A DNA stretch of 62,976 nucleotides from contig JAJYTD010000020.1 of the NCBI GenBank assembly GCA_021793235.1, forward strand, positions 1 to 62,976, in the 5' to 3' direction. A program made the position numbers and the translations under genes. This document shows, one piece after another, positions 6,387-34,005 of this stretch. Numbering within the stretch: the first letter of the stretch is position 1; each line of letters starts with the position of its first letter. Under the pieces are notes generated by a model. The model was not told the origin of the DNA. It searched no databases and saw only the letters and a program-made list of their open reading frames with translations. This DNA is from Actinomycetes bacterium (GTDB taxonomy: Bacteria > Actinomycetota > Actinomycetes > Streptosporangiales > Streptosporangiaceae).

Positions 6387-7106
6387 TCAACTGGCCTTGC
6401 GTTTACGGTCCAGTACCGGCATGGGGCGCACCAGGCCGAGGGCGACGACCTCGTTGGCCAGCCGCGTGCGGCGGTTGGGCCCCTCGGGGATCCGGAACTT
6501 CTGGTAGAGGCGGAGAAGGTGCTGTTTGACGGCCGCTTCGGTGACGACCAGGTCCTCGGCGATCTCCCGGGCGGTCGCGGGGGAGACGAAGGCTTCGTCG
6601 GAGAGAGCGGGGCGGCAGAGCGACGTCAAGACGTCGAGCTCTCTCCGGGTGAGTTCGGGGGCCGCTCCGCGGCGCAGTTCGATGTCGGGGTTGAGCTCTT
6701 CGCTGGGCAGGCCGCCGATCCTGCATCGAGCGGTGCCGAAGCTGATGACATCGCCCTCTTCGAGGACCCTGCGCGCTATGGGGCGGCCGTTGACCCTGGT
6801 GCCGTTGAGTGAAAGGCCGAGGTCGACGACGTAGACGTACGGTCCGCGGCGCACCAGCTCGGCGTGGAGCTGTGACACGCTCGGGTCGCTGAGGCGGATA
6901 TCGGTTCCTTCTCCGCGCCCGATAGTGGTGACCTCTGCGTCCAACTGCTGTACGTCGCCGCTCTCCTCGACCCGTATATAGGGCCCGTCCACGGTTGTTC
7001 CTTCCGGTGTGGGGCGCGGCCTGGGGGGGAGCGCACGATGGGTTGTGACAGTGTGCCTCGCAGTAGAGACGGGCAGGTTGTTCTTTGCTGGTTGAGTGGG
7101 GGTCAT
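6387..7106 (-). CDS. FHA domain protein with C-terminal helix-turn-helix
   Basis: 239 residues. A forkhead-associated domain spans about residues 45-130, with TIGRGEGTDIRLSDPSVSQLHAEL and SLNGTRVNGRPI, so it should bind phosphothreonine peptides. The C-terminal 90 residues (LTRRELDVLTSLCRP, SPATAREIAEDLVVTEAAVKQHLLRLYQKF) resemble a DNA-binding helix-turn-helix of the LuxR/winged type. A link between Ser/Thr kinase signalling and transcription is an inference. Start ATG 7106 with GAGGACA upstream. The first 40 residues are Pro/Thr/Arg-rich and look unstructured. Confidence 0.8.
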   Translation of the reverse strand: MTPTQPAKNNLPVSTARHTVTTHRALPPRPRPTPEGTTVDGPYIRVEESGDVQQLDAEVTTIGRGEGTDIRLSDPSVSQLHAELVRRGPYVYVVDLGLSLNGTRVNGRPIARRVLEEGDVISFGTARCRIGGLPSEELNPDIELRRGAAPELTRRELDVLTSLCRPALSDEAFVSPATAREIAEDLVVTEAAVKQHLLRLYQKFRIPEGPNRRTRLANEVVALGLVRPMPVLDRKRKAS

Positions 7107-7481
7107 GGGGGCTGTCCTCGCTCACCGTGGCACTCGTCTCCTCACTGGTTACCCGGGCGGTGTGATTTCTACGCGCTTACCGCAAAGTGAGAGTCGCGTC
7201 GCGGAAGGTTTACGGTGTTTCCGCGTAATAGGGTCTGTCCTGAGGCCATGGAGACCGTGCCCGATTCGGTGCGGCATGAGGCGGGGCGGGAGCGTCCTCA
7301 CTACAATGAGTCCCGCTGTGGCCAGGAACAACGTGTAGTCGATCAGAGTCGGCTCGGCTGCCGGCCGCACGCACGCGCCGGTTTCGGTCCCGGTGGGTAC
7401 GCCGGTGGCCGGTCCCCGCCATGATCGGCTGGGGCGCCGGGGATGATCTCGGAATATGTGTGCGCTAGCGTGAGGTTTACG
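7107..7481. other. Divergent intergenic region
   Basis: 375 bp between the FHA gene (minus) and the DUF3017 gene (plus). I see no gene. A 12-bp direct repeat AGGTTTACGGTG occurs at about 7207 and again at about 7472, the second copy overlapping the DUF3017 ribosome-binding region. Promoters for both genes should lie here but I cannot place them with confidence. Confidence 0.5.
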
Positions 7482-21801: not shown

Positions 21802-22314
21802 CTATCGGCCGTCGGTCCGCGGCAGATCGTCCCGGGACCACGGCCGCTGCCGGAGAGGCGGCGGCACACAGGGCCGGGCGCGCAGATCCGCGACGTAGAA
21901 CGACGGTGCTCCCGCCTTCTCCGCGGCGTCGGCGATGATGCCCAGGTAGGCCGCCGATGGCAGGCCGCCTTCGTAGTCGTTGAGTACATACGTCCACGCG
22001 GTGACGTCCCCGTCCAGCAGGGTGCTCGCCCGAACCCGGATCTTGGAGTAGGTCCCCAGACCGGTCCCCTCCCAGGCGTCCACGTGTGCTTCATCCCATC
22101 GGGACATGTCGTACAGGGCGACGAAGACGCTGCGGTCCGCGTGTTCCACCAGGGTCGCCAGCGCGCCGTCTCCATTGCCGGCGGCCCCGCCGAAGGTCAG
22201 CAGCCAGCCTTCCAACCAGCCGGTGCCCCACAGCGGCGAGTGCGGAGCATGTTCGGCCATGTGCCCGGGATCGAGATTGCTGCCGTAAGCGGCGTACAGA
22301 GACACGCGGCACAT
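21802..22314 (-). CDS. Gamma-glutamylcyclotransferase-like protein
   Basis: 170 residues. The N-terminus YAAYGSNLDPGHMAEHAP is the substrate-binding YGSN motif of the gamma-glutamylcyclotransferase fold, followed by GTGWLEGWLLTFGG. VTAWTYVLNDYEGGLPSAAYLGIIADAAEKAG is typical of the actinobacterial subgroup. Members cleave gamma-glutamyl amides to 5-oxoproline; the substrate here is unknown. GTG 22305 is an alternative start. It diverges from the lpdA-like gene. Confidence 0.82.
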   Translation of the reverse strand: MCRVSLYAAYGSNLDPGHMAEHAPHSPLWGTGWLEGWLLTFGGAAGNGDGALATLVEHADRSVFVALYDMSRWDEAHVDAWEGTGLGTYSKIRVRASTLLDGDVTAWTYVLNDYEGGLPSAAYLGIIADAAEKAGAPSFYVADLRARPCVPPPLRQRPWSRDDLPRTDGR

Positions 22315-22466
22315 GCTACGTGGCCGAACGCGACAGCGGTGAGAAATACGCCGCGTGGGATGGCGGAGAATGGAAAGAAGCGACAGGTGAGCGAAAATCC
22401 GGGCGGCGGCTCACAAGGCCGGGCGTGTCCCAACGGACGCGGTCCGCCGGAAGGAGTGGAGCGGAA

Positions 22467-23849
22467 GTGACGAAAGTCGTGATCATCGGTGGCGGACCGG
22501 GAGGCTATGAGGCGGCCCTGGTCGCCGTCCAGCTCGGCGCCGACGTGACTGTGGTCGATCGCGATGGTATCGGCGGGGCCTGTGTCCTGACCGACTGTGT
22601 TCCGTCCAAGACCCTGATTGCCACGTCCGTCCGGACGACCTACGCCAAGGACGCCACCCGGCTCGGGATCAACATAGGAGATGAGGCCGGCGGCAAGTCC
22701 GGCGTCGAGGTCGACCTGAACACGGTGAACACCCGGGTCAAGCGGCTGGCCCGCGCCCAGTCGGAGGACACCGCCGCACGCGTGGCCAAAGAGGGGGTGA
22801 AGATCATCCGCGGCGAGGGGCGCCTTGTCGACCCGCGTATCGTCGCGGTCGGCGAACAGCGCGTCCACGCCGACGTCGTACTCGTCGCCACCGGAGCACA
22901 CCCGAGGGAGCTTCCGACGGCCAGGCCCGACGGCGAACGCATCCTCACCTGGCGGCAGCTCTACGACCTGGAGAAGCTCCCGGAGAAGCTCATCGTGGTC
23001 GGCTCCGGCGTCACCGGCGCCGAGTTCGCCAACGCCTACCAGGGGCTGGGATCCAGCGTCACCCTCGTCTCCTCCCGCGACCGTGTGATGCCGACCCAGG
23101 ACGCCGACGCCGCCGAAGTACTGGAGGGAGTGTTCGCGCGCCGGGGGATGTCGGTTCTGGGCAACACGAGAGCCGAGTCGGTCACCAACACCGGCAGCGG
23201 AGTCGTGGTGACCCTCACCGACGGCCGCACGGTCGAAGGCAGCCACTGTCTGATGACGGTCGGAATGATCCCCAACACCGGCAACATCGGTCTGGAGGAG
23301 ATCGGCGTCCGCCTCGACTCCGGCGGCTTCGTCCAGGTCGACCGGGTATCGCGGACATCCACCCCGGGTGTCTACGCCGCGGGTGACTGCACCGGCGTGA
23401 ACATGCTCGCGTCCGTGGCGGCGATGCAGGGGCGCATCGCGATGTGGCACGCGCTCGGCGAGGCGGTCTCCCCACTGAAGCTGTCCACGGTCGCCTCCAC
23501 CGTTTTCACCCACCCGGAGCTGGCCGCCGTCGGCGCGAGCGAACAGGACGTGCGGTCCGGCAAGGTCGATGCGCGCATCGTCAACCTGCCGCTGGACACC
23601 AACCCGCGCGCCAAGATGACCGACAGCAAGGACGGCTTCGTCAAGCTCATCTGCCGCCGGCACACGGGTATCGTGCTCGGCGGCGTCATCGTCGGCCCGC
23701 GCGCCAGCGAACTCATCCTCGGTGTCTCCGTCGCCGTCCAGCAGCGTCTCACCGTCGACGAGATCGCCCACACCTTCGCCGTCTACCCGTCGCTGTCGGG
23801 CAGTGTCACCGAAGCCGCGCGCTCCCTGATGCAGGCCTCGCCGGAGTAA
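22467..23849 (+). CDS. lpdA: NAD(P)H-quinone oxidoreductase / LpdA-type flavoprotein
   Basis: 460 residues, pyridine nucleotide-disulfide oxidoreductase class I. The FAD loop VVIIGGGPGGYEAALVAVQL is N-terminal; the CVLTDCVPSK segment near residue 37 has Cys-x4-Cys as in lipoamide dehydrogenases. An NAD loop IVVGSGVTGAEFANAY lies near residue 175, and YAAGDCTGV near residue 305. The C-terminus (LSGSVTEAARSLM) lacks the His-Pro-(T/S) active-site ending of true lipoamide dehydrogenase, as in the mycobacterial LpdA (Rv3303c) group that reduces quinones. GTG 22467 with AAGGAG at 22451. It probably ends in the palindrome at 24153. Confidence 0.85.
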   Translation: MTKVVIIGGGPGGYEAALVAVQLGADVTVVDRDGIGGACVLTDCVPSKTLIATSVRTTYAKDATRLGINIGDEAGGKSGVEVDLNTVNTRVKRLARAQSEDTAARVAKEGVKIIRGEGRLVDPRIVAVGEQRVHADVVLVATGAHPRELPTARPDGERILTWRQLYDLEKLPEKLIVVGSGVTGAEFANAYQGLGSSVTLVSSRDRVMPTQDADAAEVLEGVFARRGMSVLGNTRAESVTNTGSGVVVTLTDGRTVEGSHCLMTVGMIPNTGNIGLEEIGVRLDSGGFVQVDRVSRTSTPGVYAAGDCTGVNMLASVAAMQGRIAMWHALGEAVSPLKLSTVASTVFTHPELAAVGASEQDVRSGKVDARIVNLPLDTNPRAKMTDSKDGFVKLICRRHTGIVLGGVIVGPRASELILGVSVAVQQRLTVDEIAHTFAVYPSLSGSVTEAARSLMQASPE

Positions 23850-24152
23850 GCCGGGGTAGGCCGGAGTGACAGGAGGCCGTGGGGGGTGCGGCAATGGGGC
23901 ATCCCGAGCGCAGCGAGGGATGCCGGCGTGCCGCCGGACACGTCGGGCGCCGGACAATCAGACCGCCACCACGGTTTCGGGGTCCTGCCGCCAGAAAGGG
24001 TGCCGGTTTGCTCGGCGGCACGCTGGTCCTTGCTCGCTGCGCTCGCAGGGCCCCATTGCCGCAACCACTACGGTGGACCCGGACACGGCAGCGGCCTCGC
24101 CCCCGCAGAGCCACGCCCGCCGAACCAGCTTCGACACACATGATCGCCAATA
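23850..24152. other. Intergenic region holding a full hairpin element
   Basis: 303 bp between convergent lpdA and the Gly-rich membrane protein gene. Most of it is hairpin element copy B (23887-24063); the palindromic element copy 2 follows. Short open frames are confined to the repeat and I do not consider them genes. Confidence 0.65.
23887..24063. repeat. Long hairpin element, copy B
   Basis: TGCGGCAATGGGGC (23887-23900) and GCCCCATTGCCGCA (24050-24063) are perfect 14-bp terminal inverted repeats. Within them GAGCGCAGCGAG pairs with CTCGCTGCGCTC, and CGTGCCGCCG with CGGCGGCACG, so each arm is about 54 nt and the whole 177 bp can fold on itself. The loop carries CCACCACGGTTTCGGGGT, which is shared with copy C. 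Confidence 0.8.
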
Positions 24153-24208
24153 GATCTTGACGCTGTGCACCCCTCGCGCGCCGTTTTGGGGTGCACAGCG
24201 CCAAGATC
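24153..24208. repeat. 55-bp palindromic element, copy 2 (reverse orientation)
   Basis: Arms 24153-24173 and 24188-24208 (21 bp) have one mismatch. The loop is the reverse complement of the copy 1 loop (CAAAACG...GCGAG), so the element is inverted relative to 146-200. It lies between two convergent genes, 15 nt from the stop of the minus-strand gene. Confidence 0.85.
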
Positions 24209-24223
24209 GGCGTTTCCGAAGGC

Positions 24224-24330
24224 TCAGAAGTCGAATCCGCCGAAGTCGCCGCCGCCGAAGTCACCGAAGTCGCCGCCACCGAAGTCGCCGCCGCCGAAGT
24301 CCTCGCCGCCGCCGAAATCGCCGCCCATGC
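24224..24330. repeat. Short tandem coding repeats (DFGGG)
   Basis: Repeated CCGCCGAAGTC units encode the DFGGGDFGGG tail of the membrane protein. Such GC-rich tandem repeats can change length by slippage. Confidence 0.7.
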
Positions 24331-25498
24331 CGCCCAGCATGGCGCCGCCCATCATGGACCCCATCATCGAGCCCATCATCATGCCGGTGAACATGCCCAG
24401 CATCATGTCCATGCCGAAGTAGCCTCCGGCGTAGGGGGCGTAGGCCGGTCCGGCGTCGTAGTAGGGCCGACGCTGCCCGTCGACCTCGACCATGCGGACA
24501 TCCGGGTCGTGGCCGGAGAGCACCGCCTGCGAACAGACGGGGCAGGCCGGGACCGAGCGGGGCGAGCCGCCGGGTGGCGCCCACATGACGTCCTGCTGCG
24601 ACGGCCCGTGCTGCGGGTTGAAGAAGCAGGGCTTGCGCCGCTCGGGGACGGGCTCGCCGTTCATCCGCGCCCGGGTGGCGGTCATGTAGTAGCGACCGTC
24701 CTCCAAAGCGTTGGTGACCTGCTGGATCTGCTCGGGTTCGCGGATGGTGTCGAGCGTGGCCTTCGCCCGGTCGTAGGAGTCCATCGCGTGGGTGTAGTCG
24801 GCGCGCGTGGGGTCGTCGACCTTGGCGAGGTCGATCTCCAGGCCGGCGATGTCCTCACCGAGCCGGACGACGTCCTCGGTCGCCATCTGCTTGATCTCGG
24901 AGAGCTCCTTGGCCTTCTGCGCCTCGCGCTTCTTCTTGGAGCTGTACAGGAAGAAGCCGCCGCCGACAACGGCCAGCGCGAGAATCCCCAGCAGCAGAGC
25001 ACCGAAGACGCCCGATGCCGCCTCCGCGGACTCCTGCTCCTCGGCCGCCTCGGGAATGGCCACGAGAGTGTCGACCACGTTGCCGTTGCCGTTGATCTTG
25101 GCCTCGGTGCCGATCTCCCGGACAGCGGCCTCATCGAGGTTCGGGGACTCGACGAAGTACCCCTGATCACCGACGAAGCCCGCGTAGACGCCGTCGCCCA
25201 CGTCGTCCATGACCAGATCCAGATAGGCCTCGATCGACCCCTCTGACCTGAGCATCCCCTCAGGCAGGATCACGTAGTAGACGGGGACCTCGGAGTTCTC
25301 GGCGACCTGGATCAAGACATCCCGTTCGGCCTGCGGGAACTGGTCCTCGGTGATGCTCTCCTCGATGAAGAGGTGGTCGCTCGCCAGGTCCTTGGCGACT
25401 TCATTGGCGCTGGGGGTGTCGGCGTGGGCCGGTGCCCCTGCCATGACGGCGGTAAACCCCGCGGTCAGCAGGGCGGGTACTACCAAGCGGCGCAACAT
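24224..25498 (-). CDS. TPM-like membrane protein with CxxNPxH...CxxC motif and Gly-rich tail
   Basis: 424 residues. Signal peptide 1-26 (ends AHADT), an extracytoplasmic alpha/beta domain of about 130 residues with PVYYVILPEG and VGDGVYAGFV, a transmembrane helix at 163-186, a basic helical cytoplasmic region (190-280), then C291-x2-N-P-x-H297 and C319-x2-C322, which could bind zinc. The tail has GQRRPYYDAGPAYAPYAGGYF, Met/Gly-rich segments and DFGGG repeats. TPM/YgcG-type proteins share the layout of an outer domain, a helix and a Gly-rich tail; function unknown. ATG 25498 with AGAGGAAC upstream. It is the member of a four-gene family closest to known actinobacterial proteins. Confidence 0.78.
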   Translation of the reverse strand: MLRRLVVPALLTAGFTAVMAGAPAHADTPSANEVAKDLASDHLFIEESITEDQFPQAERDVLIQVAENSEVPVYYVILPEGMLRSEGSIEAYLDLVMDDVGDGVYAGFVGDQGYFVESPNLDEAAVREIGTEAKINGNGNVVDTLVAIPEAAEEQESAEAASGVFGALLLGILALAVVGGGFFLYSSKKKREAQKAKELSEIKQMATEDVVRLGEDIAGLEIDLAKVDDPTRADYTHAMDSYDRAKATLDTIREPEQIQQVTNALEDGRYYMTATRARMNGEPVPERRKPCFFNPQHGPSQQDVMWAPPGGSPRSVPACPVCSQAVLSGHDPDVRMVEVDGQRRPYYDAGPAYAPYAGGYFGMDMMLGMFTGMMMGSMMGSMMGGAMLGGMGGDFGGGEDFGGGDFGGGDFGDFGGGDFGGFDF

Positions 25499-25676
25499 GA
25501 TCGTTCCTCTCGCCTCCCTCACTCTCTAAAGACGAACACGCGAGGTCGCAAGTTCCCATCCCGCGCGGTGGCCGTTTCCACCCTACGGGCGTCCACAGTG
25601 CGATGGTGCCCTTGGGGGCGCACCCCAAAGCCTGCCCAATAACACCTCCCGGTTCGGTATTGATGTTGCGATTTCC

Positions 25677-25701
25677 GCGTTTGCCCAGGTGGTCAGGGTA
25701 A
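25677..25701 (+). promoter_or_regulatory. Possible SigB-type stress promoter
   Basis: GCGT (25677-25680), 15 nt, GGGTAA (25696-25701) fits the actinobacterial general-stress promoter pattern GNNT-N14-16-GGGTA(C/T). It is about 90 bp upstream of the PRC-barrel/DUF2382 gene, a type of gene often under stress sigma control. Confidence 0.4.
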
Positions 25702-25790
25702 GCGGAGAAGAGGGAGGTGCGTCGGGGAGCACATCCGAGCCGCTGTCCGACCACCGCCTGGCCCAATCCGAACATCGGGAGGGAACAAGC

Positions 25791-26540
25791 ATGGAACCGC
25801 AGGAGCTGATCGGCCACCGGCTGCTCGATGCCAACGGTGACAATGTCGGCAAGATCGGCCATGTGCTCTATGACGACGTGTCGCACGACGCCAAATGGGT
25901 CACGGTCCGCACCGGTCTGTTCGGCACCCGGGAGTGCTTCGTGCCCTTGCAGGGAGCGCGCCCCGCAGCGGAGGACCTACAGGTCCCCTACGACAAGCAG
26001 GTGGTGAAGGACGCTCCGCACTTCGAGGCCGACCAGCACATCTCGCCGGAGGAGGAGAACGAGATCTACCGGCACTACGGCCTGGACATAACCGGGGCCG
26101 GCCGTACTCAGGAGCAGGAGCGCACCGCCCAGACCGGGCCCGCCGCCACGCGGACGAGCGAGGACGAGGCCACCATGACCCGCTCCGAGGAGCAGGCCGA
26201 CGTCGGCGTCCGGCGGGAGCAGACCGGTACGGCGCATGTGCGCAAGACGGTCGACAGCGAGGGGTTCAGCGAGACCGTGCCCGTGACCCACGAGAGGATG
26301 CGGGTCGAAAGGGAGCCCGTCACCGAGGCCGACGCCGGAGCGCAGGCGGTCGGGCCGGAGGAGAAGGAGTTCACGCTCTACGAGGACCGGCCCGTGGTGT
26401 CCAAGAAGACCGAACCGGTGGAGAAGATCAGGGTCTCCAAGGAGCAGGTCACCGAGGACCAGGAGGTCCGGGGCGAGGTGCGCAAGGAGCACTTCGAGAT
26501 GGACGAGGACGACGAGGGCAGGCACCGGCGCCGGGAGTGA
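25791..26540 (+). CDS. PRC-barrel and DUF2382 (YsnF-like) stress protein
   Basis: 249 residues from ATG 25791 with GGGAGGGA upstream. The N-terminal PRC-barrel (about 5-85: ELIGHRLLDANGDNVGKIGHV, WVTVRTGLFGTRECFVPL) is followed by a polar linker, then DUF2382 (about 140-245) with ADVGVRREQTGTAHVRKTV, ETVPVTHERMRVEREPV and a mirrored second half. Proteins of this design are soluble or surface-associated and commonly induced by stress. It is transcribed opposite to the membrane protein genes on both sides and interrupts that family cluster. Confidence 0.88.
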   Translation: MEPQELIGHRLLDANGDNVGKIGHVLYDDVSHDAKWVTVRTGLFGTRECFVPLQGARPAAEDLQVPYDKQVVKDAPHFEADQHISPEEENEIYRHYGLDITGAGRTQEQERTAQTGPAATRTSEDEATMTRSEEQADVGVRREQTGTAHVRKTVDSEGFSETVPVTHERMRVEREPVTEADAGAQAVGPEEKEFTLYEDRPVVSKKTEPVEKIRVSKEQVTEDQEVRGEVRKEHFEMDEDDEGRHRRRE

Positions 26541-26672
26541 CCGCCGCTGACCGCCGCGGCGGGCGTGTATCGGGGCCCGTATCCGCACGTGCGGCCGTGC
26601 GGGTGCGGGCCTGCCGCGCGCCGGGTCGCGGCGCCGCCGTTCCGGTGGGCGGACGGGCGACCTGCGCCGCGC

Positions 26673-27983
26673 TCACCCCCGGCGCAGGTCGCCTCTGAGG
26701 ACGCGTTCGACGAGGTCGTCGCGGATGCCGCCATAGCCGGTCGCCGCCCAGAGGCTCTCCTGTGCCGGCACTTCGTAGTAGGCGAGGCGGCGGCCGCCGT
26801 AGGTCGTGGGCAGAGCAGTCGGGGCGCGGTGCCGGCGGACGGCCGCGGCGCATTCGTCGCAGGCGGGCACCTTGATCTTGCGGGGCGACCCGAGCGCGCG
26901 CCAGGTGATCGCCTGGGTCGTGGTCGAATGCAGAGGGTTGAAGTAGCAGTGGCGCCGGGGTTCTGGCACCTGCTCGCGGTCTTCGGACCGGGCCTCGGCG
27001 GAGCGCAGCGCGTCCTCGCTCATGTGCAGCAGGACCTGCGCGCCGGCGAGGTCGGCGATGTCGTCGGCGGCGTCCAGAACCTTCCCGGCCGCGTGGTGGG
27101 CGTCGAGGGCGCGCTGGTAGTCGGCGCCGACCTGGGCCTCGGCCCCGTCGTCCAGGCTGAAGGCGCCGAGCCGCTCACCAAGTTCGACCAGGTCCCGGCC
27201 GATCTCCCCGTGCAGCGCCTCGCGGCGGGCGTCATCAGCGTTGTCGAAGGCCACGATCTGCGGGGCGGCCGGGGTGCGGCGGCGGTACAGCAGTAGGCCC
27301 GTGCCCGCCAGTGCGGCGAGGACGGCCGCGCCGCCCGCCAGGGCCCACGGCGAGAAGATCCCGCCCGCGAGTGCGCCGGTCGGCGCGGGGGAGGGGGACG
27401 TGTCGTCCTCCCTCTCCTCGGCCGCCAGCTCCGCGCTGAGGCGGTCGTGCTCAGCCGCGGCGGTGCCCGCGCCGATCAGCTCGATGGCGCGGGCGAACTC
27501 CCCGGCCGGCCCGGAATCGGAAGCGTCGATGTTGGCGGCCGACGCCGCATCGTCGGCCTGCTGGTCGCCGCCGTAGTCCACGCCGATGAGCCGGGGGGAG
27601 GAGCCCAGGTCCGAGGTGAGGTAGGAGCCGTCCTCGCCGAGCCGGTCGTGGACGGAGCCGAGGAGCTGGTGGGGGTCGCCGTCCCAGGAATCGCCCGCGA
27701 CGAGCGGGACCAGGACCACATAGATCGGCTTTCCGCTCTGTTCGATGAGCCGGTCCAGCCGCTCCTGCTCGGCTTGGGGCAGTGCCGACTCCACGGCCGG
27801 GTCGACATACACCGGCGACTGCCGCAGCCCGTCGGCGATCCGCTGGGCCGGACTCGTATCCGCCGCGACCCCGGGCGCGAGGCCGAAGAGGACCGCGACG
27901 GCGGCCAGCACGGCCAGCACGGCCCACACGGCCGACACGGCGTGGGCGCACGCGAGGTGCGAGGGGAAGGGCCTAATCGACAT
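26673..27983 (-). CDS. TPM-like membrane protein with CxxNPxH...CxxC motif (paralogue 2)
   Basis: 436 residues. N-terminal hydrophobic signal/anchor (about 15-40), an extracytoplasmic domain with QSPVYVDPAVES, GKPIYVVLVPLVAGDSW and VHDRLGEDGSYL, an acidic Ala-rich linker, a transmembrane helix (about 212-233), a helical cytoplasmic region, then C346-x2-N-P-x-H352 and C375-x2-C378. It lacks the Gly-rich tail of the first paralogue and ends in an Arg-rich segment. ATG 27983 overlaps the end of the upstream paralogue by 11 nt, with AAGGAAC as ribosome site. Third gene of a three-gene operon. Function unknown. Confidence 0.75.
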   Translation of the reverse strand: MSIRPFPSHLACAHAVSAVWAVLAVLAAVAVLFGLAPGVAADTSPAQRIADGLRQSPVYVDPAVESALPQAEQERLDRLIEQSGKPIYVVLVPLVAGDSWDGDPHQLLGSVHDRLGEDGSYLTSDLGSSPRLIGVDYGGDQQADDAASAANIDASDSGPAGEFARAIELIGAGTAAAEHDRLSAELAAEEREDDTSPSPAPTGALAGGIFSPWALAGGAAVLAALAGTGLLLYRRRTPAAPQIVAFDNADDARREALHGEIGRDLVELGERLGAFSLDDGAEAQVGADYQRALDAHHAAGKVLDAADDIADLAGAQVLLHMSEDALRSAEARSEDREQVPEPRRHCYFNPLHSTTTQAITWRALGSPRKIKVPACDECAAAVRRHRAPTALPTTYGGRRLAYYEVPAQESLWAATGYGGIRDDLVERVLRGDLRRG

Positions 27984-29373
27984 CGAGTTCCTTGAGGACG
28001 CGCTGGGGGAGGTCGGGGATGTCCCGGCCGTAGCCCAGGGACCGCCAGAAACCGGGTATCCGGTAGTGGACGGTGCGCTCGCCGCCGATGCGCAGCCGCA
28101 GCAGGGCCCATTTCAGTGCCGGCCCCATGGTGTGGAGGCCGGCGCAGCGGGCGCAGACGGCGCCCGTGGGGCCGTCGTGCGGAAGCTCTTTGGCGTACCG
28201 CCGCCGCCCCTCTTCCCTGCCGTCGAGGGCCGCTCCGTGCAGTGGGTTGACCACGCAGAACGAGTACGTGCCGGGGGCGCCCTCCGCGGTGAGGGCGGCG
28301 CGTGCTCGGCGCACCATGGTGATCGCGCCGACGAGCCACTGGTCGTCGTGGCCGCCGCGGCTGATCAGTGCGGCCGCGTCGAAGGCGGCGACGGCCCCGG
28401 CGTGGCCGGGGTGTTCGTGCGGCGCGGACCGCAGCCCGCGGGCCAGTCGGCGCAGCTCGGCGCGCAGCATCCCGGCCAGCCTCCGGTGCGAGGGGCGCGC
28501 AGGGGCGCGGCGTGCGCGCAGCAGCGCGGGCAGGTGGTCTTCGCGGGCCTCAAAGGGGCGCGGCCCCACGCCCGTGCAGAACCGCACCGCAGCGGTAGCG
28601 GGCAGCACCACCGCCAGGGCGAGCCCGCTGATGAGCGCGCCGACGATGACGCCGGGAAGGAGGTCGGCGACGAAGTCGGAGGCGTAGGAGTCGGGCGGGT
28701 CACCGGTGCCGGGGCTGTCGTCGAACCAGGCCGGATCGGGCGACGGGGACTCCGGGTCGTCGGAGGGGGCCGCTTCGATGTTGCCGATCACGGGGGTGAG
28801 CTGCTCGGTGAGGAGTTTCGCCGCGGCCGTGTGGGCGTCGTGGCCGGGGGGCTCCTCGAACTCCTCCGGGTAGAGCACGGTGAGCTCGTCGATGGGGACG
28901 TTGAACAGGAGCGTGGTGAGGGCGAACGGGCCGGTACTGATCTCGGGGGGCTCAGCCGCGATGTAGATACCGTCCTCGCCCAGTTCATGGTGGAGGGCGT
29001 GGAGGAACAGGTCGGCGTTTCGGCCCGATTCGCCGTAGGCGGGCAGCGGCAGGACGGCGACGTAGACGGGGTGGTCGGTGGTGCCGAGCAGCTCTGCCAG
29101 CTCTTCGCGCTCCTCTGCGCTGACGGCATGCGCGGCTTCGGGGTCGACGAAGAGGGGGGCCTCGCGCAGGGCGGCGGCGACGCGCTCCACGCGCTCGGTC
29201 TCGCGGACATAGGGCGGGGCGGGCGCGGAGCTCGATTCCTCGAAAGACGCGAAAGACGGGGATGGTTCCTCGGAAGGGGCCGGGGCCGACCCTTCGAGGA
29301 AGGCCAGGGCCGGTATCCCGAGAGCGGCTATGGCGCACCCGAGGAGGAGCAGTGCCGTGAGGATCCGCCTCAT
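27973..29373 (-). CDS. TPM-like membrane protein with CxxNPxH...CxxC motif (paralogue 3)
   Basis: 466 residues. Signal peptide or anchor (1-25), a Ser/Pro-rich stalk, then the outer domain with EAPLFVDPEA, HPVYVAVLPLPAYGES and HHELGEDGIYIAAEP; a transmembrane segment near 238-262 (LLPGVIVGALISGLALAVVL); an Arg-rich cytoplasmic region; then C373-x2-N-P-x-H379 and C407-x2-C410. Domain order and motif spacing match its neighbours although overall sequence is divergent. ATG 29373 overlaps the stop of the upstream gene (ATGA). Function unknown; a membrane sensor or scaffold with a zinc-binding inner module is one possibility. Confidence 0.75.
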   Translation of the reverse strand: MRRILTALLLLGCAIAALGIPALAFLEGSAPAPSEEPSPSFASFEESSSAPAPPYVRETERVERVAAALREAPLFVDPEAAHAVSAEEREELAELLGTTDHPVYVAVLPLPAYGESGRNADLFLHALHHELGEDGIYIAAEPPEISTGPFALTTLLFNVPIDELTVLYPEEFEEPPGHDAHTAAAKLLTEQLTPVIGNIEAAPSDDPESPSPDPAWFDDSPGTGDPPDSYASDFVADLLPGVIVGALISGLALAVVLPATAAVRFCTGVGPRPFEAREDHLPALLRARRAPARPSHRRLAGMLRAELRRLARGLRSAPHEHPGHAGAVAAFDAAALISRGGHDDQWLVGAITMVRRARAALTAEGAPGTYSFCVVNPLHGAALDGREEGRRRYAKELPHDGPTGAVCARCAGLHTMGPALKWALLRLRIGGERTVHYRIPGFWRSLGYGRDIPDLPQRVLKELDVD

Positions 29374-30170
29374 CGCCGCTTCTCCGCCCGCTGCCCGCCC
29401 ATCCTGGGCTGTCTGTCCTGTCTGCCCTGTTTATTCCGCGCGTGTTCGGCGCGGCGCTGCCGACGGTAGACGGAGAGGACGGAGGGGACCGTGATGGCCG
29501 CCCCCAGGAGGATGCCGGCCAGGAAGCCGATGTTGTGCCGCCCGGTGGTGAGATCGGGGTTGAGGTGCCCGGCCAGGTCGGCGAGGATCCCGTCGCCGGA
29601 CGCGGTGTCCGCCTCCAGGTTCTCGCGCTCGTACTCCGCTAGTTCGCGGTCCAGCTCGTCCCGGGCGCGGTCGAGCCGCTCGTCCGCCTCGCCCGAGGTG
29701 ATGTTGTCGACCGTGCGCTCGATGAGGTCGACGGGTGACGCGTCGTCCAGCAAGGCCGCCTCCTCAACGGACTTGTCCAGATTCGGTACGTCCACGCCGT
29801 AGCCGACCCCGCTGACCGACAGCATGCTTCCGCCCGTCACCGCCAGGTAGAGCCCGTCCTCGCCGACCCGGTCGTGCACGGCGGACAGGAGCGGCTCGTC
29901 GGTGTAGTGGCTCCCGCCGTAGCCGGGGACTACGAGGACGTAGACGGGCATGTCGAGGTCGGCGACCGCCGCCGCGATCGCACCGTGTGTCCCCGCGAGA
30001 TCGCCGCCGCCCATGTGGTCGCTGACGTAAACGGGATCCTCGGCCAACCGCTCGGCATAACGGGCGGCGTTGCTTTCCGCATCGGCCGTGGCGGGGGCGG
30101 CGGTGAGGGGGTAGGCCGTCAGCGCGGTGAGGAGCAGCACGAACGGCGCACGGATCCGGGACCAGAGCAC
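29370..30170 (-). CDS. TPM-like membrane protein, short paralogue without the Cys motif
   Basis: 266 residues. Signal peptide (1-30), an outer domain with EDPVYVSDHMGGG, MPVYVLVVPGYGGSHY and VHDRVGEDGLYLAVTGG, an acidic coiled-coil-like stretch (EADERLDRARDELDRELAEY, about 161-180) and a transmembrane helix at 212-234, then a short basic tail. The cytoplasmic helical region and CxxNPxH...CxxC module of the paralogues are absent. It is the first gene of the operon. The GTG start at 30170 has no ribosome site but lies 6 nt after a TAAGAT element, so a leaderless message is likely. Confidence 0.75.
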   Translation of the reverse strand: MLWSRIRAPFVLLLTALTAYPLTAAPATADAESNAARYAERLAEDPVYVSDHMGGGDLAGTHGAIAAAVADLDMPVYVLVVPGYGGSHYTDEPLLSAVHDRVGEDGLYLAVTGGSMLSVSGVGYGVDVPNLDKSVEEAALLDDASPVDLIERTVDNITSGEADERLDRARDELDRELAEYERENLEADTASGDGILADLAGHLNPDLTTGRHNIGFLAGILLGAAITVPSVLSVYRRQRRAEHARNKQGRQDRQPRMGGQRAEKRR

Positions 30171-30176
30171 CCAAAG

Positions 30177-30204
30177 ATCTTAATCCGCGCCGAAAAGCAC
30201 TAAA
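30177..30204 (-). promoter_or_regulatory. Candidate leaderless promoter of the membrane protein operon
   Basis: On the minus strand TTTAGT (30204-30199), 16 nt, TAAGAT (30182-30177), then 6 nt to GTG 30170. The -10 is good and the -35 is moderate. Confidence 0.5.
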
Positions 30205-30302
30205 CAGGGCGGTACCCGGTGGCGGCCCCCGTAGGAGCCCGCCACCGGGTCCGCACCGATGAGGGGACGGAGCGTGCCGACCGCCCGTTTTCCCCGCCCT
30301 GG

Positions 30303-32069
30303 TCAGGCGTCCTTGATCTCGCAGACGGCGCCGCCGTTGCCGATGCTTTCCCCGGCCGACACCGACAGGCCGGTGATGGTGCCGGACTTGTGGGCGGTCA
30401 GCGGCTGCTCCATCTTCATCGCCTCGATGACGACGACGGTGTCGCCTTCGGCGACCTCCTGGCCGTCCTCCGCGACGACCTTGACGATGGTGCCCTGCAT
30501 GGGGGAGACCAGGGTGTCCCCGCTCGCGGCGGTCGTCCCCGAGCCGCCGCCGCGCCGGGACGGCTTCTTGGCGCTTTTCTTCCCGCCGCCCGCGCCGAGG
30601 TCGGCGCCCAGGCCGGCGGGCAGCACGACCTCCAGGCGCTTGCCGCCGACCTCCACGGTCACGGCTTCGCGCGCATCGGGTTCTGCCTGCTCGGCCGTGC
30701 CGGTGTAGGGGGCGATGGTGTTCTCGAACTCGGTTTCGATCCACCGGGTGTGGACGGAGAACGGCTGGGCGGGATCCTCCGGCGCGAACGCGGGGTCACT
30801 GAGGACGGCCTGGTGGAAGGGGATGACCGTGGGCATGCCGCCGACCTCGAACTCGGCGAGTGCGCGGCGCGACCGCTGCAGGGCCTCGGCGCGGTTCCGC
30901 CCCGTCACGATGAGCTTGGCGACCATCGAGTCGAACGCCTGCGGGACGGTGAACCCGGCTTCGCACCCGGTGTCCACCCGCACACCCGGCCCGCCCGGGA
31001 GGGAGAGGGCGGTGATGGTGCCCGGAGCGGGCATGAAGTTGCGGCCGGCGTCCTCGGCGTTGATGCGGAACTCAAAGGAGTGGCCGCGCAGCGGCGGGTC
31101 GCCGTAGCCGAGCTCCGCGCCGTCGGCGATGCGGAACATCTCACGCACCAGGTCGATCCCTGCGACCTCCTCGGTCACCGGGTGCTCCACCTGCAGCCGG
31201 GTGTTGACCTCCAAAAAGGAGATCGTGCCGTCCTGGCCGACCAGGAACTCGCACGTACCGGCGCCGATGTAGCCGGCCTCGCGCAGGATCGCCTTCGAGG
31301 AGGAGTACAGCAGCTCCAGCTGCTCTTCGGAGAGGAACGGCGCGGGAGCCTCCTCCACCAGCTTCTGGTGGCGCCGCTGCAGCGAGCAGTCGCGGGTGGA
31401 GACCACCACGACATTGCCGTGGGCGTCGGCCAGGCACTGGGTCTCCACGTGCCGGGGCCGGTCCAGGTAGCGCTCCACGAAGCACTCGCCGCGGCCGAAC
31501 GCCGACACCGCCTCGCGCACCGCCGACTCGTACAGGTCGGCCACTTCGTCCAGCGACCGGGCGACCTTCAGCCCGCGTCCGCCGCCGCCGAACGCGGCCT
31601 TGATCGCGATGGGCAGGCCGTGCTCCTCGGCGAACGCGACGACCTCGTCGGCACCGGAGACAGGGTCGGGGGTTCCGGCGACCAGCGGCGCGCCGACCTT
31701 CTGCGCGATGTGGCGGGCGGCCACCTTGTCACCGAGCGAGGTGATGGCCGACGGCGGGGGGCCGATCCAGGTCAGCCCGGCGTCCATGACGGCCTGGGCG
31801 AAGTCGGCGTTCTCCGCGAGGAACCCGTAGCCCGGGTGCACGGCGTCGGCACCGGACTCCGCGGCGATCGCCAGGATCTTGTCGATGTCGAGGTAGCTGT
31901 CCGCGGGGGTCTGCCCGCCGAGGGCGTAGGCCTCGTCAGCGACTTTGACGTGGAGGGCGTCGAGGTCGGGTTCGGCATAGACCGCGACGCTGCCGAGGCC
32001 GGAGTCCCGGCAGGCACGCGCCACCCGTACCGCGATCTCGCCGCGGTTGGCGATGAGTACTTTACGCAC
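30303..32069 (-). CDS. accA: Acyl-CoA carboxylase alpha chain (biotin carboxylase plus BCCP)
   Basis: 588 residues. GTG 32069 with AGGAGG 9 nt upstream. A biotin carboxylase domain fills about 1-445 ([23 protein letters not shown]-grasp Gly-rich loop [12 protein letters not shown], and [15 protein letters not shown]). The C-terminal biotinyl domain carries [12 protein letters not shown], whose EAMKM lysine is biotinylated, presumably by the BirA at 37765. It supplies carboxybiotin to the beta chain just upstream for making malonyl- or methylmalonyl-CoA. A Lys-rich insertion ([16 protein letters not shown]) lies before the biotinyl domain. Confidence 0.95.
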
Positions 32070-32155
32070 GGTCGAAATTCCTCCTGGTGCGGCGTCAGCA
32101 AGATCCCACGCCTGGTCGGGAAAAGTCTGAACAGAAGCGGCAGGGGCGGTCGGGG

Positions 32156-32401
32156 TCACCCGGGGCGGAAGCTCCCGCGCCACGCCCCGGGGCCGGGCGC
32201 CAGAGGGCGGCGCACCAGCCGGCCGCGGTCGCGCCACCCTGAAGCGGGGGCGCGCTCAGCCGCCTCGGCCTCCCGGGCCGCCTGGATGGCCCGGGCGCGG
32301 GCGGTCAGCACGGCGACCAGCGCCGCTGTCTCCTCCGGCCCCGGGTTTCCGCGCACCAGGCGCAGAAAGGGGGCGTGCGGTTGCTCGGATGCGTGCGACA
32401 T
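32156..32401 (-). CDS. accE: Acyl-CoA carboxylase epsilon subunit
   Basis: 81 residues. [22 protein letters not shown] is the characteristic core of the small actinobacterial epsilon subunit that ties alpha and beta chains together; the rest is basic and Pro-rich. ATG 32401 overlaps the stop of the beta-subunit gene by one base (TAATG). The gene lies between the beta and alpha subunit genes, the expected position. Confidence 0.85.
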
Positions 32402-34005
32402 TAGAGCGGAATGTTCCCGTGTTTCTTGGGCGGCAGCTGCCGGCGCTTGTCGCGCAGTGAACGCAACGCCTTCGCGATGGATACGCGGGTCTCCGAGGGC
32501 ATGATGACGCCGTCGACATAGCCCCGCTCAGCGGCGGAGTAGGGGTTGAGGAGCGTGTCCTCGTACTCCTGGATCAGCCGGCCGCGCTCGGCTTCGACGT
32601 CGTCGGCCTCAGCGAGGGTGCGCCGGTACAGGATGTTCACCGCACCCTGGGCCCCCATCACCGCGATCTGGGCGGTGGGCCAGGCCAGGTTGATGTCGGC
32701 GCCCAGGTGCTTGGAGCCCATGACGTCGTAGGCGCCGCCGAACGCCTTGCGGGTGATGACGGTGATCAGCGGGACCGTGGCCTCGGCGTAGGCGTAGATC
32801 AGCTTGGCGCCGCGCCGGATGATGCCGTTCCACTCCTGGTCGGTGCCTGGGAGGAACCCGGGCACGTCCACGAAGGTCAGCACCGGGATGTTGAAGGCGT
32901 CGCAGGTCCGCACGAACCGGGCCGCCTTCTCCGACGCGTCGATGTCCAGGCAGCCGGCGAAGCTCATCGGCTGGTTGGCGACCACCCCCACCGGGCGCCC
33001 CTCGACACGGCCGTAGCCGACCACGATGTTGGTCGCGAACTGGGCGTGGACCTCCAGGAAGTCGCCGTCGTCCAGCACGTGCTCGATGACGTGGCGTATG
33101 TCGTAGGGCTGGTTGGCGGAATCGGGGATGAAGGTGTCGAGTTCGAGGTCGGTGTCGGTGATGTCCGGCTCGGGCTCGGCGGCATAGACCGGCGGGTCCT
33201 CCAGGTTGTTGGCCGGAAGGAAGGACAGCAGGTCCCGGACGTAGTCGAGCGCGTCCTGCTCGTCGGCGCCCATGTAGTGGGCGACCCCGGAGGCGGTGTT
33301 GTGCGTCCGCGCGCCGCCCAGTTCCTCCATGGAGACGTCTTCACCGGTGACGGTCTTGATGACATCGGGGCCGGTGATGAACATCTGCGAGGTCTGGTCG
33401 ACCATGACGATGAAGTCGGTCAGCGCGGGAGAGTAGACGTGCCCGCCGGCGGCGGCACCCATGATCAGCGAGATCTGCGGGATGACACCGGAGGCGTGCA
33501 CGTTGCGCTTGAAGATCTCGGCGTAGAGGCCGAGCGCGACCACGCCCTCCTGGATGCGCGCGCCGCCGCCCTCGTTGATGCCGACAATGGGGCAGCCGGT
33601 CTTGAGCGCGTGGTCCAAGACCTTGACGATCTTCTCGCCGTAGACCTCACCGAGGGAACCGCCGAAGATGGTGACATCCTGGCTGAATACGGCGATGGGG
33701 CGGCCGTCTACGGTACCGTAGCCGGTGACAACCCCGTCGCCGTAGGGACGGTTCTTGTCCAGCCCGAAGTTGGTGGATCGGTGCCTGGCCAGGGCGTCGA
33801 ACTCGACGAAGGATCCGGGGTCCACAAGGGCGTCGATGCGTTCGCGCGCGGTCATCTTGCCCTTGGCGTGCTGTTTTTCGATGGCTCGCTCGGAACCCGC
33901 GTGGACGGCCTCGTATCGGCGCCGCTGTAGGTCGGCGAGCTTGCCCGCAGTGGTGTGGATGTCGATCTCCGCAGCGGGCAGCGGTTCAGGGGCTTCGGTC
34001 GCCAT
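32401..34005 (-). CDS. pccB: Acyl-CoA carboxylase beta subunit (propionyl/acetyl-CoA carboxyltransferase)
   Basis: 534 residues, the normal length. Carboxyltransferase halves show [34 protein letters not shown] and [16 protein letters not shown] in the N-domain, and [24 protein letters not shown] and [22 protein letters not shown] in the C-domain, with the oxyanion Gly pairs conserved. It carboxylates acetyl- or propionyl-CoA. I cannot tell the preferred substrate from sequence alone. First gene of the carboxylase operon, divergent from ppc. Confidence 0.93.

Follow-up and report, generated by a model that had tools for sequence, protein, structure and literature searches.

TPM proteins (PF04536) are found in plants and bacteria, and their role, phosphatase or assembly factor, is disputed (PMC11237479). 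The same source presents them as proposed chaperone-like factors for membrane complexes; in its Bacillus example the TPM head of YdjH is followed by a low-complexity or coiled-coil part, and YdjH goes with PspA and with zinc-ribbon partners at the membrane, YdjG/YdjL (PMC11237479). Here we analyzed four related minus-strand genes, named A, B, C and D in order of transcription (24224-30170), in a 62,976-nucleotide stretch (hereafter the window) of an Actinomycetes bacterium of the Streptosporangiaceae (GCA_021793235.1, contig JAJYTD010000020.1). We propose, with the balance about even, that one membrane complex has A, B and C as its obligate subunits and serves, without enzymatic activity, as a transmembrane scaffold or assembly factor. 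The three-part composition is likely, the scaffold role is tentative, and the complex has probably not been described before.

The predicted outer head, as modelled for D, has the fold of the TPM proteins (5anp, 2kpt, 7tbr, 2kw7, 3ptj and 8c7i; Z 9-12), where the head is likewise on the outer side of a membrane protein. In contrast to these, several different paralogues form one gene set here, an inner Cys/His module is added, and there is no sequence match above cut-off. The zinc ribbons of the YdjH system are partner proteins (PMC11237479), whereas the Cys/His module here lies within the same chain as the head. The Rv1476 family (PF20381) has an outer domain and then one C-terminal membrane helix, like A, but lacks the inner module of B, C and D. 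A similar head fold was seen in 6adq_J, subunit J of the mycobacterial CIII2CIV2 supercomplex (VIA Z 8.8 over 103 residues), which gave no match in a Protein Data Bank (PDB) sequence search with the family profile. Cg1604, the RipA activator, also crosses the membrane once and couples its outer alpha/beta domain to a partner inside, but the reported fold is receiver-like and the reported system is one outer protein plus Cg1603 (PMC9897464); Cg1604 was not among the structure matches of D, which is no proof of difference.

The features of the four genes are as follows (HMM, hidden Markov model).

29370-30170 (-): gene A, short member, 266 amino acids; outer head, one C-terminal membrane helix and basic tail, without the putative zinc module
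29817-30068 (-): outer head of A, residues 35-118 (D-head HMM E 2e-5; hhalign A-C 99.4, A-B 99.2)
29370-29373 (-): overlap of genes A and B, 4 nucleotides
27973-29373 (-): gene B, long member, 466 amino acids; head, membrane helix and cytosolic part with Cys/His module
28918-29190 (-): outer head of B, residues 62-152, by profile the member nearest to TPM (D-head HMM 4e-17; hhalign with TPM 88%)
28144-28257 (-): putative ligands of the B module, C373, H379, C407 and C410
27973-27983 (-): overlap of genes B and C, 11 nucleotides
26673-27983 (-): gene C, long member, 436 amino acids; head, membrane helix, helical part and Cys/His module
27600-27848 (-): outer head of C, residues 46-128 (D-head HMM 2e-14)
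26850-26948 (-): putative ligands of the C module, C346, H352, C375 and C378; modelled as knuckle, beta-hairpin and helix
24224-25498 (-): gene D, widespread member, 424 amino acids; ATG at 25498, start as in close orthologues
25019-25411 (-): outer head of D, residues 30-160, modelled with the TPM fold (AlphaFold2 model, structure matches)
24647-24904 (-): cytosolic helical part of D, residues 199-284, common to C and the pentapeptide protein X (hhalign D-X 99.7, C-D 96)
24461-24646 (-): Cys/His module of D, residues 285-346; putative ligands C291, H297, C319 and C322
24227-24340 (-): C-terminal tail of D, Gly/Asp/Phe-rich

An earlier note, made from the sequence alone, had listed the four genes and their motif positions (291/297/319/322 in D, 346/352/375/378 in C, 373/379/407/410 in B), and all were found as given. 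It had also placed all four genes in one system, which did not hold: D is separate and more widespread, and it lies outside the A-B-C operon because an opposite-strand gene (25791-26540, +) sits between C and D. We take that gene to resemble a PRC-barrel/DUF2382 stress protein; a transporter-like gene stands in its place at locus L031.

Composition and arrangement of the A-B-C set

Eighty clusters were sorted with a code of S for short, L for long and F for fused short-long members (the last counted as both). One short and two module-bearing long members were present in 68 of the 80. The order of these complete clusters was FL in 30, SLL in 22, LSL in 11 and LLS in 2, with FLFL, LLFLFL and LSSL (last gene split) found once each. 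Among genomes picked by C match alone, the full set lay in one cluster in 32 of 33, and the remaining genome had its parts at two contig ends. A C match of about 1e-90 or better was found in 33 of 150 genomes of the source's bacterial family. For a Streptomyces-like genus, C was detected at 1e-60 in 20 of 199 genomes, and the set was complete for 20 of 21 C matches, the last being on a 3.3-kb contig. The class sample gave a C match at 1e-30 in 47 of 296 genomes, some of them D-like; 20 stretches from 18 of these 47 genomes were read, and one stretch (L191) gave no called member.

The junctions between genes were also recurrent. B (or the fused gene) and C met at -11 nucleotides in 32 of 54 junctions, at -14 in 5 and at -8 in 3, the other 14 ranging from +2 to +353. 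A and B met at -4 in 14 of 24 junctions and at -1 in 2, the other 8 ranging from +26 to +149. The window itself has the 4-nucleotide and 11-nucleotide overlaps on which the earlier note had based a tight three-gene operon. All 35 fusion proteins carry two heads, those of A and B, in one chain. Between the heads (helix starts within residues 110-340) there were two membrane helices in 29 of the 35, one in 3 and three in 3; with two helices in between, both heads can therefore sit outside. We conclude that A, B and C probably form one obligate hetero-complex, because their make-up is constant under permuted order, the overlaps are fixed and A-B fusions occur. The same evidence gives good support to the multi-component membrane complex with a short, module-less partner suggested in the earlier note.

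The gene-neighborhood survey proposed in that note showed that A-B-C recurs as a fixed set in many soil bacteria and that D is independent of it. In the window and at other loci the set adjoins accA3 and D; it also occurs between gapA and whiA at 4 loci, next to acnA at 6 and elsewhere, these flanking genes being named by sequence pattern. A-B-C moves as a unit; its distribution is patchy, and among its several sites on the chromosome some have D alongside and others do not. At L178 and L179 the fused set is present in two or more tandem copies in one genome.

The gene upstream of A (30303-32069) is presumably of biotin-carboxylase type and was labelled accA3 from the look of its sequence, and the gene beyond D (22467-23849) was likewise labelled lpdA, which we assume it to be. 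Both were rejected as functional partners: in Streptomyces, D stands elsewhere at L089 and L103, and A-B-C changes position too. A mobile or phage origin was rejected as well, with no phage match for C and one partial match on a Streptomyces megaplasmid, and with partial matches only for D (6 plasmid records). No RNA element was detected at Rfam gathering scores in positions 22000-33000 of the window.

Outer heads and inner Cys/His modules

To compare the four proteins we used BLAST and profile alignment. BLAST among the window proteins gave E values of 1.5e-14 (A-C), about 5e-14 (C-D) and 1.5e-7 (B-C). Head profiles built from orthologue sets were aligned by hhalign with probabilities of 99.2 (A-B), 99.4 (A-C), 99.6 (B-C) and 97.5-98.4 (D vs. 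A, B and C), and a cleanly cropped D head reached 98.7 against the pooled A+B+C heads. The corresponding values were 99.3 (C-D), 98.6 (B-C) and 94.4 (B-D) for the modules, and 96 (C-D) and 89 (B-C) for the inner helices. With cleanly cropped D heads, head and inner helix did not match each other (0.4%). On these comparisons A, B, C and D are homologous along their shared parts and clearly all arose by duplication. The relatedness asserted in the earlier note exceeds chance (BLAST E 1.5e-14 to 1.5e-7; hhalign 97-99.6 for the heads). That note would have given up its reading if the heads had unrelated folds or the genes fell into known families with assigned functions; the heads are homologous, and no such family matched in Pfam or NCBIfam.

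The AlphaFold2 model of D had a mean predicted local distance difference test score (pLDDT) of 82.8, with values above 90 in residues 31-150 and 181-350 and of 84 in 151-160. By VIA, the D head matched 5anp_A (Z 12.1, 124 residues, 3.3 Å), 2kpt (11.4), 7tbr (10.9), 2kw7 (10.8) and 3ptj (10.2), and Psb32 (8c7i) scored 9.3. TPM structures occupied ranks 1-5 and 7 (Z 12.1 to 10.0 over 116-132 residues); rank 6 was a match to the helical part. Foldseek ranked the same TPM group first, at E values of only 0.02-0.07. The inner helical bundle of D gave generic helical matches only. Receiver-like or PspA structures had no row in the VIA list of D, where such absences carry no weight. The head motif overlaps the TPM signature, "EDGIYIAAEP" of B being aligned with "DNGILVLVAM" of a TPM protein. 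The modelled D head has the TPM fold, and the heads of A, B and C would share it by homology. A Gly-rich tail, as D has, is common in TPM proteins.

The four window proteins gave nothing above cut-off in Pfam or NCBIfam, PF04536 included. For 63 aligned members there were scattered weak matches among the 25 families listed per library, and PF04536 was not among the 25 listed of 93. Ten proteins including window A were compared with PF04536, giving one match of 14.4 bits, below the gathering score of 22.1. The heads are therefore described here as TPM-fold domains and not as members of PF04536. PF20381 matched 3 of the 63 aligned members (best E 5.3e-5, bits not shown; gathering score 26 bits) and none of the window proteins, and a search with this family in the window's genome found none. 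Rv1476 aligned with the D head profile at 49-67% (49% for the clean crop) and with those of A, B and C at <1%. A PDB sequence search with the family profile gave a best E of only 0.15, and one with an Rv1476 homologue gave nothing. PADLOC returned no match at E 0.1, and PHROGs a single weak match to a PHROG of unknown function (E 0.02), so the proteins did not fall into a known anti-phage defence or phage protein family. No paper on this family or gene set was recognized under the few names searched.

The charges flanking the membrane helix agree with heads outside for A, C and D; in A there are 1 Lys/Arg before and 7 after the helix.

The His-to-Cys gap of the inner module is 22 residues in C and 27 in B, the two ends of the range in the earlier note, and 21 in D, just outside it. 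The C, P, H and first C of the second pair are invariant in all 46 aligned modules of D, C and B proteins. The fourth ligand varies among C, D and E; in 99 D proteins it is Asp in 74, Glu in 1 and Cys in about 24 (Cys read indirectly from the pattern). Eight long members deviate from C-x2-N-P-x-H, seven by N to H or S and one by H to D. The C module modelled alone (pLDDT 78.5) has strands at 19-24 and 31-36 and a helix at 38-45, with C8/H14 before the hairpin and C37/C40 at the helix start. A treble clef consists of a knuckle, a beta-hairpin and a helix, with two ligands from the knuckle and two from the helix start (PMC4999995). The model of the C module has this order of elements, the comparison being of order and not of coordinates. 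VIA returned only weak matches for it (Z 2.1-2.6: 8fr8_y, 4e1p, GATA-4 and 9znf); 4e1p is Lsr2, which is counted as a treble clef (PMC4999995). The zinc binding that the earlier note gave to the inner module is predicted from the conserved ligands and the treble-clef order of elements. In Thermobifida cellulosilytica (L050:7534-7854), a 106-amino-acid C-type module stands alone before D without head and membrane helix, possibly a soluble leftover.

Gene D and the pentapeptide protein X

D was matched in 37 of 60 genomes, the window's own included, and in 125 of the 150 family genomes (E 1e-40). At least 536 relatives were confirmed; the 80 kept came from Nocardiopsis, Streptomonospora, Thermobifida, Actinomadura, Nonomuraea, Streptosporangium, Kitasatospora, Streptomyces and others. 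Two D genes stand in records assigned to Glycomyces (L039) and Spirochaetaceae (L100); these contigs may be mislabelled or contaminants. Because D is more widespread than A-B-C, it would be the older, ancestral member. Its presence in 125 of the 150 family genomes is also why D may be a basic envelope part that escaped naming.

Protein X (L017:6148-7335; relatives in L013, L016, L019-L021, L069, L071, L090, L092, L097 and L098) has an inner helical part homologous to that of D (hhalign 99.7); unlike D, its outer part is a pentapeptide-repeat domain and it has no Cys/His module. X was carried strongly by 46 of the 150 family genomes and lay within 1 kb of D in 32 of the 46. This count leaves out G015 and G236, where only part of X matched (E 2e-33 and 1e-39); G015, which has A and B without C, is in neither the X list nor the A-B-C list. 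No genome had both X and a C-bearing A-B-C set, against 10.1 expected (P 8e-7 only if genomes are independent, which they are not). Since 33 of the 150 genomes carry A-B-C, 46 carry X and none carries both, the outer head may be exchangeable on the inner part; lineage alone could explain the exclusion. A 494-amino-acid one-helix protein beside an EssC-type ATPase gene (L218:5435-6919) matched X weakly (7e-5) and could share the inner helical part. A pentapeptide match of the A-position gene at L028 was rejected as an AALTG-type simple repeat.

The proposed complex and other explanations

In the proposed complex, one short and two long subunits would each place a TPM-fold head outside and cross the membrane with one helix, and the long subunits would carry, on the inner side, a helical part and a zinc module of treble-clef type. 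Outside, the heads would bind one another or a partner in the envelope; inside, the modules would hold or recruit a cytoplasmic partner. By analogy, A-B-C may be a chaperone-like TPM factor built from three paralogues of the more widespread D, with an inner handle.

Several points weigh against this proposal. Support for a complex comes from genes and models. The clusters were chosen through a C, B or A profile match, so one member was present by selection. Twelve of the 80 were incomplete, eight of them away from contig edges. Those at edges were L163, L164, L168 and L212; the others were L015 (X remnant), L170 (C remnant), L172 and L173 (lone genes), and L028, L167, L185 and L194, with a member missing or shortened (A-B without C in L167, no short member in L194). 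Outside the source family, the orthology of the short member to A and of the first long one to B is not clear (bit scores 18-123). The membrane-helix charges of B, 0 before and 1 after, do not decide its orientation, and the inner helices of B and D do not match (hhalign 0.7%). Sequence-profile ties of the heads to TPM are faint (A 8%, B 88%, C 23%, A+B+C pooled 64%, D 1.7-6.7%, with 1.7% for the clean crop), and Foldseek found no match for the C module model (best E 2.2). No constant partner gene was seen around A-B-C in neighbor lists read by eye.

Heads outside and a conserved module inside would also suit an envelope sensor, in which damage or a ligand would be detected by the heads and the signal relayed through the helical part and zinc module inside, e.g., to a kinase or regulator. 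Of 80 loci scanned, 6 have a Ser/Thr kinase gene directly next to the set (L140, L141, L142, L177, L178 and L179; some loci D only); they come from two families, and PF00069 was confirmed in 4 of 4 tested. Four of the six fall under one genus label, however, and an independent set of 19 further stretches of the Streptomyces-like genus had one kinase by motif, non-adjacent. A kinase partner as a general rule was therefore rejected, and no constant regulator gene was noticed nearby. We consider a sensor unlikely.

Since all the genes arose by duplication, the proteins could instead be co-transcribed paralogues with separate tasks, and tandem duplication could have left the tight overlaps as frozen accidents; an overlap is not easily lost once it lies within a conserved C-terminus. 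Against this, the order is permuted (SLL, LSL, LLS) yet the make-up is constant, the A-B fusions retain both heads, and the set occurs at several sites. Separate function is rather improbable on this evidence.

Alternatively, the proteins could serve a type VII (EssC/WXG100) or Tad secretion apparatus as an accessory membrane component. Of 54 genomes searched, 30 had an EssC-type ATPase gene (E <1e-150). The A-B-C set, D or a lone C-like gene lay within 10 kb of it in 13 of the 30 and within 30 kb in 18, Streptomyces-like genomes being entered by C position only. Pfam matched FtsK domains in all 4 large genes tested, and 3 of the 6 small genes tested matched WXG100. At L173, a lone C-like gene follows a WXG100 and an ATPase gene by 126 nucleotides; this gene (6668-7342) encodes 224 amino acids of head plus helix without module. 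In L196, L198, L206, L208 and L229-L234, from two families, EssC-type ATPase genes share a region with D or A-B-C, which looks like an old conserved block; several of these loci have what we take to be Tad-pilus-like genes. The linkage is probably one inherited block (Tad-EssC-accA3-D) and not repeated events. Moreover, none of 20 stretches around EssC genes matched A, B, C or D below 1e-4 (one matched X, 7e-5), although in 7 of them a family member lies outside the stretch yet within 30 kb, and the window's own genome had no EssC match at E 1e-60. EssC genes thus occur without family members beside them, and sets occur in genomes without an EssC-type match, so the proteins are not obligate neighbors of EssC/EccC. 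Because the block looks inherited and many EssC genes stand alone, we treat the linkage as a lead only, and a secretion role is improbable.

That the heads are TPM-type phosphatases is very improbable: the fold is that of AtTLP18.3 and BA41, but PF04536 matched none of the four window proteins and, above cut-off, none of the ten proteins compared, and whether TPM proteins act as phosphatases at all is in dispute (PMC11237479).

Returning to the proposed three-part complex, A-B-C may be a new kind of transmembrane machine of Actinomycetes, with three different TPM heads coupled by single helices to inner helical and treble-clef modules, built from the older D, and with the head exchangeable on the same inner part; we hold this broader view as possible, a little short of even. 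The function would follow from the partner of the inner module and the contacts of the heads. A co-occurring trio of different TPM-fold proteins with an inner zinc-type handle bears on the disputed role of TPM proteins, and the question would be testable here because the set occurs in relatives of the genetically workable Streptomyces and Nocardiopsis.

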